A stretch of 64,000 nt of DNA from Herbinix sp. (GTDB taxonomy: Bacteria > Bacillota > Clostridia > Lachnospirales > Lachnospiraceae). The stretch lies in contig JAQZBN010000027.1 of the NCBI GenBank assembly GCA_029238935.1, forward strand, positions 1 to 64,000, read 5' to 3'. The notes below the pieces were generated by a model, which did no database searches, was not told the DNA's origin, and worked only from the letters and a program-made list of their open reading frames with translations. This document shows, piece by piece, positions 55,874 through 59,785 of the stretch (the first letter of the stretch is position 1; each line of letters opens with the position of its first letter). The position numbers and the translations under genes are program-made.

Positions 55874-56134
55874 CTTGTTACCTCCATTACATGTAAAGTT
55901 CGATTCATAAATTTTATCAATAAAAAGTATGAATTATTCCTTGTAGTATATCATAGCATAAGGATTATTTCCAGTAGCAGTTCATGTTTTCGGAAAACGT
56001 TTACAGATTATTCATTATTTGAAAAATTTCTTAGAAATAGACGATACTAGGAAGAGAACCTTATGGGTTTAAATTCGTTTGACTTTTATATTTAACTTGG
56101 TTAGAATGTAGTTAACAAATATTAGGGGTATTCT

Positions 56135-57085
56135 ATGGCAATTAATAAAGCAATGAAGATGGCATTAAAAGCGTTGTCTTATCCTGATCTGGATTTGAAG
56201 AAAACCTACAAATTACAAAGGCAGATATCGGTGGCAACTCATCCATATTTAAAGCCCATGTATGAAATATGGGATCATAAGATTGTTAACGGGGATCATG
56301 AGATTCCGGTTCGGATCTTTATGCCCCAAGATATTGAAAAGACAGAAAAGGTTTTGATCTTTTTTCATGGTGGTGGCTGGGTCATCGGGAATATAGACAG
56401 TTATAGTGCAATCTGCTCCAATATGGCGATACAGACTGGTCATATGGTAGTCTCCGTAGATTACCGATTAGCACCGGAATATCATTTTCCAGCAGCTCCC
56501 GAAGATTGTTATGCTGTCGCAAGAGCAATCTTTACCGATCGGACCTTATTGGATGTAGCTCAAAAGGATATTACATTAATCGGGGACAGTGCCGGTGGAA
56601 ATCTGGCAGCAGTGGTATCCCTGATGGCAAGAGACCGAGGCGAATTCTTACCATCAAAGCAAATTCTGATTTATCCTTCTACTTACCATGACCATACCGA
56701 TACCTCACCCTTTCCATCGGTAAAGGAGAATGGAACGGATTATCTTTTAACCTCAAAGCGAATATGTGAATTTATTGATTTCTATAAAAGCAGTGATGAT
56801 GATTTAACGAATCCATATTTGGCACCATTGTTATCGGAGGATTTATCACATCAACCTAAGACCATGATTATCACAGCTGAATATGACCCACTCCGGGACG
56901 AGGGAGAAGCCTACGGGAAAAAACTATATGAATTTGGAAATGAAGTAGAGGTATACCGCATGAAGGATGCCTTGCACGGGTTTTTATCTCTTCCAAAGCA
57001 TTTTATCCATGTTAAAAGAACTTACGAACTGATTAATCGATTCTTAAACAACGAACAGAATGAGAAGATAAATAAAACACACTAG
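56135..57085 (+). CDS. Alpha/beta hydrolase (HSL-type esterase), first gene of the acyl cluster
   Basis: A 316-residue hormone-sensitive-lipase-like esterase. HGGGWVIG supplies the oxyanion hole, GDSAGGNLAA holds the Ser nucleophile, and EYDPLRDEG and ALHGFLS give the Asp and His. No signal peptide, so it is cytosolic. It is 28 bases before the acyltransferase gene and begins a four-gene plus-strand run, so it probably removes or moves the acyl group that the others handle. The natural ester is unknown. Confidence 0.88.
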   Translation: MAINKAMKMALKALSYPDLDLKKTYKLQRQISVATHPYLKPMYEIWDHKIVNGDHEIPVRIFMPQDIEKTEKVLIFFHGGGWVIGNIDSYSAICSNMAIQTGHMVVSVDYRLAPEYHFPAAPEDCYAVARAIFTDRTLLDVAQKDITLIGDSAGGNLAAVVSLMARDRGEFLPSKQILIYPSTYHDHTDTSPFPSVKENGTDYLLTSKRICEFIDFYKSSDDDLTNPYLAPLLSEDLSHQPKTMIITAEYDPLRDEGEAYGKKLYEFGNEVEVYRMKDALHGFLSLPKHFIHVKRTYELINRFLNNEQNEKINKTH

Positions 57086-57113
57086 TTAGAAAGGAGAACT
57101 GCAAAAAAAGCTT

Positions 57114-58385
57114 ATGACGAAAAAGAAACCAGTGGAATGGTCGAGACTTGATAATGCTGCGAAGATATTTCCTCCTAACAGCAATGAAAAAGATACTAAG
57201 GTATTTCGGTTCGTAGCCGAGCTAATGGATGATATAGATGAGCAAATGCTTCAGGAAGCGGTTGAAAAAACGGTTGCTGTTTTCCCTTTTTATCAGTCAG
57301 TTCTTCGAAAAGGCGTTTTCTGGTATTATCTTGAGAATACAGATATTCTCCCAAGGGTAAAGGAAGAGAATAAGCTACCCTGCAGTATGCTATATTATCC
57401 AAATCGAAGAAATCTTCTTTTTGAAGTGACTTATTATAAAAAACGCGTTAATCTGGAAGTATTTCATGCTTTAACGGATGGCACCGGTGCATTGGGGTTC
57501 TTAAAGACTCTGCTCTATTTCTACATCATAAAACGTTATGAAGAAGATTTCGTGGGAAAGTTTCCGAAACTCGATTACGATGCTTCGATCGCTCAAAAGA
57601 TGGATGATAGTTTTTTAAAACATTACTCGGGAAAGACCACCTCGAATAAAATCAAAATAACCAAAGCTCATCATATTCTAGGACGGAGACCAATTGATAA
57701 TCGGATTAAGATCATTGAAGGAACGATGTCAGTGAAAGAAATCATACAACTGGCCCATGAACATGACACAACACTGACAGTCTATCTGACAGCCCTTTTC
57801 ATTTATTCTATCTATCAGGAGATGTCTGTTCGAAACCGCAGATTGCCAATTGTATTATCTATCCCAGTGAATTTGCGCAGTTATTTTCCATCTGTGACAG
57901 CAAGGAATTTCTTCGGTACAATCTATGTCAGTTATAATTTCTCTAAAAGCGGCAATGACTTAGATAATATTATCAAAGAAGTCAAGGAAGGCTTTCAAAG
58001 GGAACTGACTCAAGAAAAATTGGAAGAGCATATGAATAAACTTGCAGCGCTGGAACACAATGCGTTTGCCAGGGTAGTTCCATTATCGATAAAGGATTTT
58101 ATCCTGCGAATGGCAAGCTCTATCAGTGATCGAGGTATTACCGCTTCCGTTTCAAATATCGGTAAGATTACCGTACCCGGTGAATTAGCACCCTATATCA
58201 AACTATTTGATTGTTTTACCAGTGCTAGGCGTCCTCAGATTTGCATGTGTTCCTTTGGAGATCAACTGGTCGTTAGCTTTACCTCACCCTTCGTGGGAAC
58301 TGATATACAAAAGAATTTTTTTCGTATGTTAACTGAGCAGAACGTGCAGGTTACCATTGTATCGAATACAAAGGATAATATGTAA
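57114..58385 (+). CDS. Condensation-fold acyltransferase (alcohol acetyltransferase-like)
   Basis: A 423-residue protein of the chloramphenicol-acetyltransferase / condensation superfamily. The active-site region is FHALTDGTGALGFL, a version of HHxxxDG with the His and Asp-Gly, and the start WSRLDNAAKIFPP and VSNIGKI near the end are typical of the alcohol acetyltransferase-like group. The first His of HH is replaced by Phe, as in some active relatives. It would transfer an acyl group from CoA or a carrier to an alcohol or amine. The ribosome site GAAAGGAGAA is unusually far (about 17 bases) from the ATG. Confidence 0.75.
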   Translation: MTKKKPVEWSRLDNAAKIFPPNSNEKDTKVFRFVAELMDDIDEQMLQEAVEKTVAVFPFYQSVLRKGVFWYYLENTDILPRVKEENKLPCSMLYYPNRRNLLFEVTYYKKRVNLEVFHALTDGTGALGFLKTLLYFYIIKRYEEDFVGKFPKLDYDASIAQKMDDSFLKHYSGKTTSNKIKITKAHHILGRRPIDNRIKIIEGTMSVKEIIQLAHEHDTTLTVYLTALFIYSIYQEMSVRNRRLPIVLSIPVNLRSYFPSVTARNFFGTIYVSYNFSKSGNDLDNIIKEVKEGFQRELTQEKLEEHMNKLAALEHNAFARVVPLSIKDFILRMASSISDRGITASVSNIGKITVPGELAPYIKLFDCFTSARRPQICMCSFGDQLVVSFTSPFVGTDIQKNFFRMLTEQNVQVTIVSNTKDNM

Positions 58386-58410
58386 GATCAGCAGAAAGTA
58401 AGGTGAAAGA

Positions 58411-59073
58411 ATGATTCTTTGTGAACATTGTAAAGTCTCAATTAAAGGGAATCAGAGCCAGTGCCCTCTTTGCGGAGGAATTCTGCAGGGAAAGGCAAAG
58501 GATGAGGATGTATTTCCTCCGATCCCTACGATTTATCAGGAGTTTAATATATTTATCAGGGTCATCATCCTGATATCCATTGCTGTGATGGCAATCTGCT
58601 TTGCAATTAACGTTATCTTCACCAGTGAGTCCCGTTGGTCTTTTCTGGTGGCAGGAGCAGTTCTATGTATGTGGGTCAGTCTCTTCTTTATTATAAGAAA
58701 GAAAAATAATATACCTAAAACCATCGTATGGCAGGTGGGATTAATCAGTGTCCTTACAGTCATATGGGATTATTCCATGGGTTGGCATGGTTGGTCCATC
58801 GATTATGTAATTCCATCAATTTATGTGGTGGCCATGCTTGTGATGGCAATCGCGGCGAAGATTCTCAAGATAAGTGTCAGGGATTATATCGTATATATCC
58901 TGGTGGATGGCTTGTTTGGATTTATCCCGGTTATTTTTTTGTTGTTTGGAGGACTCAGCGTGAAGTATCCTTCGGTCATTTGTGTTTCAGTAAGTGTAAT
59001 ATCGTTATCGGCACTGCTTCTGTTTGAAGGGGAAAATATCAAAGCAGAATTAAATAAAATCATGCATATATAG
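58411..59073 (+). CDS. Zinc-ribbon membrane protein (DUF6320-like)
   Basis: A 220-residue protein. It opens with a four-Cys zinc ribbon (CEHCKVSIKGNQSQCPLCGG), then six hydrophobic helices. The combination matches the DUF6320 type that I associate with the acyltransferase and hydrolase arrangement seen here. It lies 25 bases after the acyltransferase gene. The ribbon probably faces the cytosol and may recruit a partner; no reaction can be assigned. Confidence 0.7.
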   Translation: MILCEHCKVSIKGNQSQCPLCGGILQGKAKDEDVFPPIPTIYQEFNIFIRVIILISIAVMAICFAINVIFTSESRWSFLVAGAVLCMWVSLFFIIRKKNNIPKTIVWQVGLISVLTVIWDYSMGWHGWSIDYVIPSIYVVAMLVMAIAAKILKISVRDYIVYILVDGLFGFIPVIFLLFGGLSVKYPSVICVSVSVISLSALLLFEGENIKAELNKIMHI

Positions 59074-59110
59074 CAGGCAATTTGCATCCGATTAAGAAAG
59101 GAAGTCGTTT

Positions 59111-59785
59111 ATGACCACATTTATGTTAAAAATGATTGCGATTATTACCATGTTAATCGATCATTCCGCAGCAATCTTTGTTCCGAACAATCTACCTATG
59201 TACTGGGTACTTAGGGGAATAGGAAGATTAGCTTTTCCTATCTTTGCCTTTTTATTGGTGGAAGGTTTCTTTCATACCAGAGATGTAAAAAAATACTTAA
59301 TTCGTCTCGGGTTGTTTGCATTCATCTCAGAGATACCATTCGATCTTGCATTTTACAAAACCTTTTTCTATCCGGGACATCAAAATATCTTCTTTACTTT
59401 GTTCTTGGGATTGTTATTAATGATGATTTTAAAGAAAGCGGAGGAGAGATTCAAGAAGAAAACGATTATAAGCAATATACTGGATGCTGTTATAACGGTA
59501 GGTTTTTGTATTATAGCAGTACTATTAGCGACAGACTATAATTATTCCGGAATTTTATTGATCATATCATTCTATTTATTCCGTGGAAATAAGATATTAC
59601 TTACCTTATCCTTATTGATCGTAACAGGATATTTAATGGGACCTTTTTCAGCAATCGCAACTCTATCAATGATCTTTATCTGGTTTTATAACGGAAAAAA
59701 GGGCAGAGATGCAAAATATCTATTTTACATCTTCTACCCAGCACATTTACTTATTTTATTTTTCATTAGTAAATTCGTATTATGA
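59111..59785 (+). CDS. TraX-family membrane acyltransferase-like protein
   Basis: A 224-residue multi-pass protein of the TraX family (eight helices). The opening LKMIAIITMLIDHSAAIF and GRLAFPIFAFLLVEGFFHTRD are the family signature, with an H in the LIDH motif that resembles the acyltransferase-3 active His. In F-pilus systems TraX N-acetylates pilin; there is no conjugation gene nearby, so here it probably acetylates a surface glycan or lipid. It is the last gene of the four-gene cluster, 37 bases after the zinc-ribbon gene. Confidence 0.85.
   Translation: MTTFMLKMIAIITMLIDHSAAIFVPNNLPMYWVLRGIGRLAFPIFAFLLVEGFFHTRDVKKYLIRLGLFAFISEIPFDLAFYKTFFYPGHQNIFFTLFLGLLLMMILKKAEERFKKKTIISNILDAVITVGFCIIAVLLATDYNYSGILLIISFYLFRGNKILLTLSLLIVTGYLMGPFSAIATLSMIFIWFYNGKKGRDAKYLFYIFYPAHLLILFFISKFVL

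Follow-up and report, generated by a model that had tools for sequence, protein, structure and literature searches.

What do an esterase, an acyltransferase and a small membrane protein of the DUF6320 family do side by side, and does the TraX-family gene that follows them belong to the same system? The question is raised by four consecutive genes in the first 64,000 nucleotides of contig JAQZBN010000027.1 of Herbinix sp. (GenBank assembly GCA_029238935.1), a stretch called the window throughout. The closest named relatives of its genome are Mobilitalea, Herbinix and Anaerocolumna, which places it probably in the Lachnospiraceae, a large family of Clostridia, and the genome holds a single match each for the acyltransferase, TraX and DUF6320. 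The original prediction joined the four genes into one pathway, in which an acyl ester could be made in the cytosol and then removed, TraX could acetylate a surface glycan or lipid, and the zinc-ribbon protein would act as the membrane hub. Comparison of related loci keeps the first three genes together and sets the fourth apart. With slightly less than even confidence, we favour an O-acyltransferase tethered to the membrane and opposed by an esterase, a unit composed of the acyltransferase (AAT), the DUF6320 protein and the esterase (EST) that would carry out reversible or proofread acylation, with TraX as a separate module. The four open reading frames (ORFs) are the following.

56135..57085, + strand: EST, hormone-sensitive-lipase (HSL) type esterase, 316 aa (PF07859 Abhydrolase_3, 226.7 bits)
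57114..58385, + strand: AAT, HxxxDG-superfamily acyltransferase, 423 aa (PF07247 AATase, 34.7 bits, cut-off 22)
58411..59073, + strand: DUF6320 protein, N-terminal zinc ribbon and five or six predicted transmembrane helices, 220 aa (PF19845, 200.9 bits, cut-off 29.9)
59111..59785, + strand: TraX-family membrane acyltransferase, placed here outside the conserved unit, 224 aa (PF05857, 162.7 bits, cut-off 25)

The gaps between them measure 28, 25 and 37 bases. Coordinates and gap lengths are as originally described, and a Pfam search returns the families named then: Abhydrolase_3, AATase, DUF6320 with a CxxC...CxxC ribbon, and TraX.

A conserved three-gene unit

Linkage was counted in a class set of 40 DUF6320-centred loci from 148 class genomes and in a named set, the best 80 of 577 AAT-centred places; the two sets overlap slightly, since the AAT sequence is the same within five pairs of rows, including L032/L086 and L033/L095. 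AAT lies directly 5' of DUF6320 in 37 of the 40 class loci, the three misses being weak matches below the Pfam cut-off, and DUF6320 lies directly 3' of AAT in 79 of the 80 named loci, where the sole miss stops at a contig end. EST is found no more than 1.7 kb from AAT in 12/40 class and 68/80 named loci. The linkage of EST, AAT and DUF6320 is far beyond chance. It is kept where the arrangement changes: one clade in an IQ-TREE phylogeny of 83 AATs carries EST 3' rather than 5' of AAT, and in a single assembly (L159:4628-6841, + strand) EST and AAT share one 737-aa frame, followed by DUF6320. Of the genomes with AAT but no DUF6320 match in the profile search, six were read directly: L159, L161 and L163 do have it beside AAT, while L160 and the distant relatives L170 and L171 have no adjoining copy.

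The four-gene unit originally proposed therefore stands for EST, AAT and DUF6320 and fails for TraX, which lies within 4.5 kb of AAT in 0/40 class and 10/80 named loci. Occurrence of the genes apart from one another in most genomes, which had been named as an argument against a common unit, is what is seen for TraX; it is not seen for AAT and DUF6320, and is seen only in part for EST. The idea of the ribbon protein as a membrane partner has fared better and looks correct from its pairing with AAT and from the repeated fusions described below.

No recurrent flanking partner that would name a substrate was found among the neighbours, which were read by eye and clustered; the 108 operon-neighbour ORFs listed include 12 TraX genes and about seven EST genes lying downstream. 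The immediate flanks vary, so the unit does not sit in a larger cluster that recurs. In 28 loci an ABC-type ATPase is encoded no more than four genes away, but its position is scattered and either strand may carry it. Two plasmid records carry a relative. On one of them (L212, Anaerotruncus colihominis, NZ_CP094683.1), EST, AAT and DUF6320 are directly followed by a diacylglycerol-kinase-family gene, a neighbour that points weakly to lipids.

Fusions and loss of the zinc ribbon

An open frame of more than 560 aa surrounds DUF6320 in 34 places among the matches listed for 299 family genomes, and all 34 were read. Fusions of AAT to DUF6320 make up 41 of the 179 AATs examined and represent 40 different sequences. 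This set is enriched in fusions: loci L152-L211 were partly chosen as looking fused, ribbonless or TraX-linked, so that totals over 179 AATs are not prevalence figures, while the 120 loci L032-L151 were taken in on a match to DUF6320 or AAT, not for these traits. The zinc ribbon is present in 0/41 fusions versus 124/134 unfused partners, a table that omits four AATs lacking a DUF6320 partner (L084, L160, L170 and L171). Among the loci unselected for trait the figures are 0/6 and 107/111. In the 12 fusions whose junctions were read, the AAT C-terminus runs into the beginning of the membrane domain, in most cases at an FP/YP motif. Since all fusions are without it, the ribbon may be an element that docks AAT onto the DUF6320 membrane protein and becomes dispensable once the two are covalently joined.

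The fused state changes about six times on the IQ-TREE phylogeny: in the main Lachnospiraceae clade, in L138, in the group of L166, L172, L173, L180, L185, L190 and L200, in L167, in L169 and in L044. The nearest unfused relatives bear the ribbon in five of these six cases (all except L044), although the placement of L169 is weakly supported. A seemingly ribbon-bearing fusion, L199, was rejected as a frameshift, because the C-terminus of AAT is encoded, together with its stop, in the +1 frame; it is counted as unfused in the IQ-TREE analysis and in the fusion-ribbon table, and still as fused in the FastTree analysis. A joint alignment of DUF6320-only rows and fusions was also rejected, its near-invariant columns suggesting that the DUF6320 rows had been spread over AAT. 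Those AAT columns found to be relaxed in ribbonless lineages follow the phylogeny no less than the trait.

Features of the three proteins

The motifs and residues discussed in this section are located as follows.

56366..56377, + strand: HGGG oxyanion-hole motif, EST residues 78-81 (H78, G79 and G80 in 128/128 aligned operonic esterases, G81 in 95%)
56582..56596, + strand: GDSAG nucleophile elbow, EST residues 150-154 (S152 in 128/128)
56975-56977, + strand: EST H281 (kept in 128/128)
57465..57482, + strand: HALTDG catalytic motif, AAT residues 118-123 (H118 and D122 kept in 60/60 aligned relatives)
58420..58473, + strand: zinc ribbon C4-C7-C18-C21 of DUF6320, the proposed docking element (cysteine conservation; missing in fusions)

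DUF6320 is described in Pfam as a family of unknown function, and among the papers searched none was found to name it or to describe a function. The PF19845 match begins at residue 35 of the window protein, leaving the ribbon outside it. The four ribbon cysteines are invariant in 62 aligned unfused members, a set picked for having the motif, and in 20 class members, where the 19 others were hand-picked. P36, D120, W128 and P135 are likewise kept across the 62 ribbon-selected members. Hydropathy gives five separate stretches above threshold, and reading by eye adds a sixth; with six helices and the ribbon inside, D120, W128 and P135 would be on the outer side, a placement that, with the topology read by eye from hydropathy, hints at a role for DUF6320 beyond anchoring. 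The family is found in 41/148 and 108/391 class genomes (two samples), in 56/100 and 157/299 family genomes (two samples) and in 11/249 phylum genomes. Two contigs labelled Treponema (L117 and L127) carry an AAT-DUF6320 pair, perhaps through horizontal transfer or misbinning.

Sixty relatives of AAT were compared with family models: PapA_C matches 40, AATase 29 (at E 0.01) and Condensation one. The AAT profile itself matches 50/148 class genomes, and sequence comparison finds no relative of solved structure at E 0.1. HxxxDG is kept in 175 of 179 AATs, the others being HxxxDA in L046, L131 and L136 and a truncated protein in L210. Four records labelled unclassified bacteriophage, from human faeces (MT835641.1, MT835472.1, MT836634.1 and MT835493.1), encode AAT relatives over most of their length; one of the four was looked up and carries no annotation.

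EST has its best solved relative by sequence in EST2 (1qz3, 5e-55) and contains every motif looked for in an HSL/Abhydrolase_3 enzyme, namely HGGG, GxSxG and the catalytic histidine. Among the 128 operonic esterases no acid residue was picked out above the 90% conservation line as the catalytic acid. A secondary Pfam match, Say1_Mug180 (PF10340), scores 39 bits against a cut-off of 21, and Abhydrolase_3 fits far better. Hydropathy finds no transmembrane-like stretch in either EST or AAT, and both are therefore probably cytosolic.

Proposed function and alternatives

In the favoured scheme, AAT would be a soluble acyltransferase dependent on coenzyme A, and DUF6320 its near-obligate membrane partner, whose cytosolic zinc ribbon would dock AAT onto the membrane domain. 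At the inner face of the membrane, AAT would act on an acceptor sitting in, or delivered to, the membrane, most likely a membrane-embedded alcohol. EST, encoded in the same operon, would hydrolyse what AAT makes, or a by-product acylated in error, and in this way the two enzymes would together run a reversible or proofread cycle of acylation. We infer the coenzyme A donor, the membrane alcohol acceptor, the docking of the ribbon on AAT, the opposed directions of AAT and EST and the topology. A wider proposal is possible but unlikely: DUF6320 would define a class of two-part membrane acyltransferases in which the ribbon is a docking plug lost on fusion and the membrane domain, with its conserved cluster of Asp, Trp and Pro (on the outer side in a six-helix topology), handles a lipid acceptor or carries the acylated product to the other side of the membrane.

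DUF6320, the marker of the unit, occurs in gut bacteria such as Dorea and Robinsoniella among the named loci. If the scheme is true, major gut bacteria would make an as yet undescribed acylated membrane compound and DUF6320 would acquire a role, while fusion with loss of the ribbon would be a natural experiment identifying the ribbon as an element for protein docking. Although each protein family is known, as far as the literature was searched their stable combination, the repeated fusion and the ribbon loss are undescribed, and nothing was found on this gene set.

Several observations weigh against the scheme. Ten unfused partners in two clades (L045, L046, L202-L206, L056, L064 and L158) are ribbonless, and one of these clades is sister to a fusion; docking must thus be possible in another way, or the ribbon has another role, and it is not strictly needed. 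Of four per-lineage contrasts between fusion and ribbon on starred branches, three go in the expected direction and none is opposed (sign test p 0.25-0.5), a number too small to reach significance. Moreover, where a fusion originates by a deletion between the two genes, loss of the ribbon could be a simple by-product of that event. L160 has AAT and no DUF6320. Of 38 class AATs, 26 lack an adjoining EST, and the AAT tree (FastTree) shows 20 changes in EST presence. Finally, the yeast parallel drawn below is one of family membership, and Say1 has a transmembrane segment (PMC4076087), whereas EST has none.

Among the alternatives, sequential acylation of the mycobacterial type, known from acyltrehaloses and sulfolipids, survives best and is still decidedly unlikely. 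The HxxxDG enzyme would make a first ester, a protein of the alpha/beta-hydrolase fold would act as transacylase to give a product with more acyl groups, and the small membrane protein would help to present or move it. The same three kinds of part, a PapA-type acyltransferase, an alpha/beta hydrolase and an integral membrane protein, appear in that system (PMC4183827), and PapA_C is the model matched by most AAT relatives. However, EST is of the HSL type and without a transmembrane-like stretch, whereas Chp1 and Chp2 have an N-terminal transmembrane domain (PMC4183827). Only clade-specific or generic families recur beside the unit, and reading by eye and clustering recognised neither a polyketide synthase nor an MmpL in its neighbourhood, not every neighbour having been family-searched.

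Improbable as well is a role in detoxification or tagging for export, in which AAT would promiscuously acylate foreign hydrophobic alcohols and EST would rescue the cell's own. Such a role is published for the yeast Atf2/Say1 pair (PMC4076087). It agrees with a unit that stands alone, without a recurrent biosynthetic partner, and with the patchy spread of DUF6320 (41/148 class, 56/100 family and 11/249 phylum genomes). However, the unit is also found in lineages of Herbinix and Acetivibrio, which are free-living fibre degraders, and no exporter recurs beside it, the ABC-type ATPases noted above being scattered.

More doubtful still is that only AAT and DUF6320 form the functional unit and EST is an operon passenger that clears unrelated esters. 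The many class AATs without an adjoining EST and its 20 changes on the tree would favour such a passenger. Against it, EST keeps its linkage where the gene order differs, shares a frame with AAT in L159 and lies beside AAT in 68/80 named loci.

TraX as a lineage-specific neighbour

The TraX protein has many transmembrane-like stretches by hydropathy, and its first helix carries a Lys and an Asp-His pair that are kept in 15/15 aligned copies. DUF6320 and TraX occur together in 14/148 class genomes, where 13.3 are expected (41 x 48 / 148). In the family, TraX is present in 94/100 genomes and DUF6320 in 56/100, and among the matches listed the two genes adjoin in the window's genome and in G202, and lie 2.2 kb apart in G171. 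Of 20 family TraX loci (L214-L233), taken from the upper part of the match list, 11 carry an isoamylase-like gene directly 5' of TraX in the same orientation and nine do not. The isoamylase-like gene matches the Pfam alpha-amylase family, at 44.6 to 51.8 bits in the three tested, and its association suggests a separate TraX module linked to alpha-glucan.

Two close outgroups of the window's clade, L152 and L079 (Anaerocolumna), show the order EST, AAT, DUF6320, isoamylase, TraX, DUF5721 and then, directly or further on, HtpG. The places concerned are L152:7202-9121 and L079:10143-11983; the L079 frames of isoamylase and HtpG are broken up. Only a distant isoamylase (33% identity) is present in the window's genome. 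Because isoamylase sits between DUF6320 and TraX in both outgroups, the adjacency seen in the window is probably derived, and the most economical account has two modules lying end to end, with loss of the isoamylase gene in the window's clade. Each of the 10 rows of that clade, and also L153 and L093, has TraX directly 3' in the same orientation, with three changes on the trees; independent gains in L153 and L093 are possible, as is some functional link between TraX and the unit.

TraX was rejected as a fourth component on its absence near AAT in all 40 class loci, its chance-level co-occurrence and its own isoamylase partner. The pathway of the original prediction, with AAT and EST handling an acyl ester and TraX acetylating a surface glycan or lipid, is accordingly very improbable: its steady TraX adjacency within one clade and two further loci is outweighed by these results, by TraX copies lying mostly elsewhere in family genomes, and by the isoamylase between the two modules in the outgroups.

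Surroundings of the locus in the window

Upstream of the four genes lie an aldo/keto reductase-ferredoxin protein and a GDSL esterase (both by Pfam); TraX is followed by DUF5721 (Pfam) and then by an HtpG-like protein, so named from its sequence without a family search. As the original prediction had it, no gene for conjugation, non-ribosomal peptide synthesis or polysaccharide is adjacent, the neighbours checked by Pfam or sequence being of other kinds. A purine-rich, Shine-Dalgarno-like stretch precedes each of the four starts by eye. One further feature precedes EST.

56079..56107, + strand: sigma-70-like promoter site, TTGACT-17-TAGAAT, 5' of EST (consensus scan, 10/12 matches)

One other + strand site in the window scores equally, and promoter-like sites are not clearly enriched in the window relative to shuffles (24 found, mean 17.7, standard deviation 4.9). 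PADLOC gave no match for any of the four proteins. At the far end of the window, positions 287-360 match a group II intron just over the gathering score (41.1 bits versus 40).

Comparison with known systems

TraX is described as acting in F-pilin acetylation and as a borderline member of the TmAT superfamily (PMC12423673). The window protein resembles this family by its PF05857 score. It differs in setting: it stands without a pilin or conjugation gene, none of the latter being found among the TraX neighbours checked by Pfam, so that the context of pilin acetylation is not encountered, and copies in the family often follow an isoamylase-like gene.

The mycobacterial sets PapA1-Chp1-Sap and PapA3-Chp2, which serve the synthesis of sulfolipid and acyltrehalose, share with the unit an HxxxDG acyltransferase, an enzyme of the alpha/beta-hydrolase fold and, in the sulfolipid case, a membrane protein; Chp1 and Chp2 transesterify, and Sap is thought to aid translocation (PMC4183827). 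The unit departs from them in that EST belongs to another esterase subfamily, without a transmembrane-like stretch, and in the lack of a polyketide synthase or MmpL recognised nearby by eye and clustering, a survey in which not every neighbour was family-searched.

Yeast Atf2 is a member of PF07247, the family whose cut-off is exceeded by the window AAT; EST in turn exceeds the cut-off of Say1_Mug180. To our knowledge, sterols are unlikely as an endogenous substrate in Clostridia. In yeast, Atf2 and Say1 run a cycle of sterol acetylation and deacetylation, in which ester making and breaking are opposed at a membrane, and Say1 carries its own transmembrane segment (PMC4076087). EST, in contrast, has none, and the membrane part of the unit would be supplied by the separate DUF6320 protein. 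By analogy, the yeast Atf2/Say1 pair is the nearest working parallel to the unit, and the mycobacterial PapA-Chp-Sap set supplies the model for its main rival.

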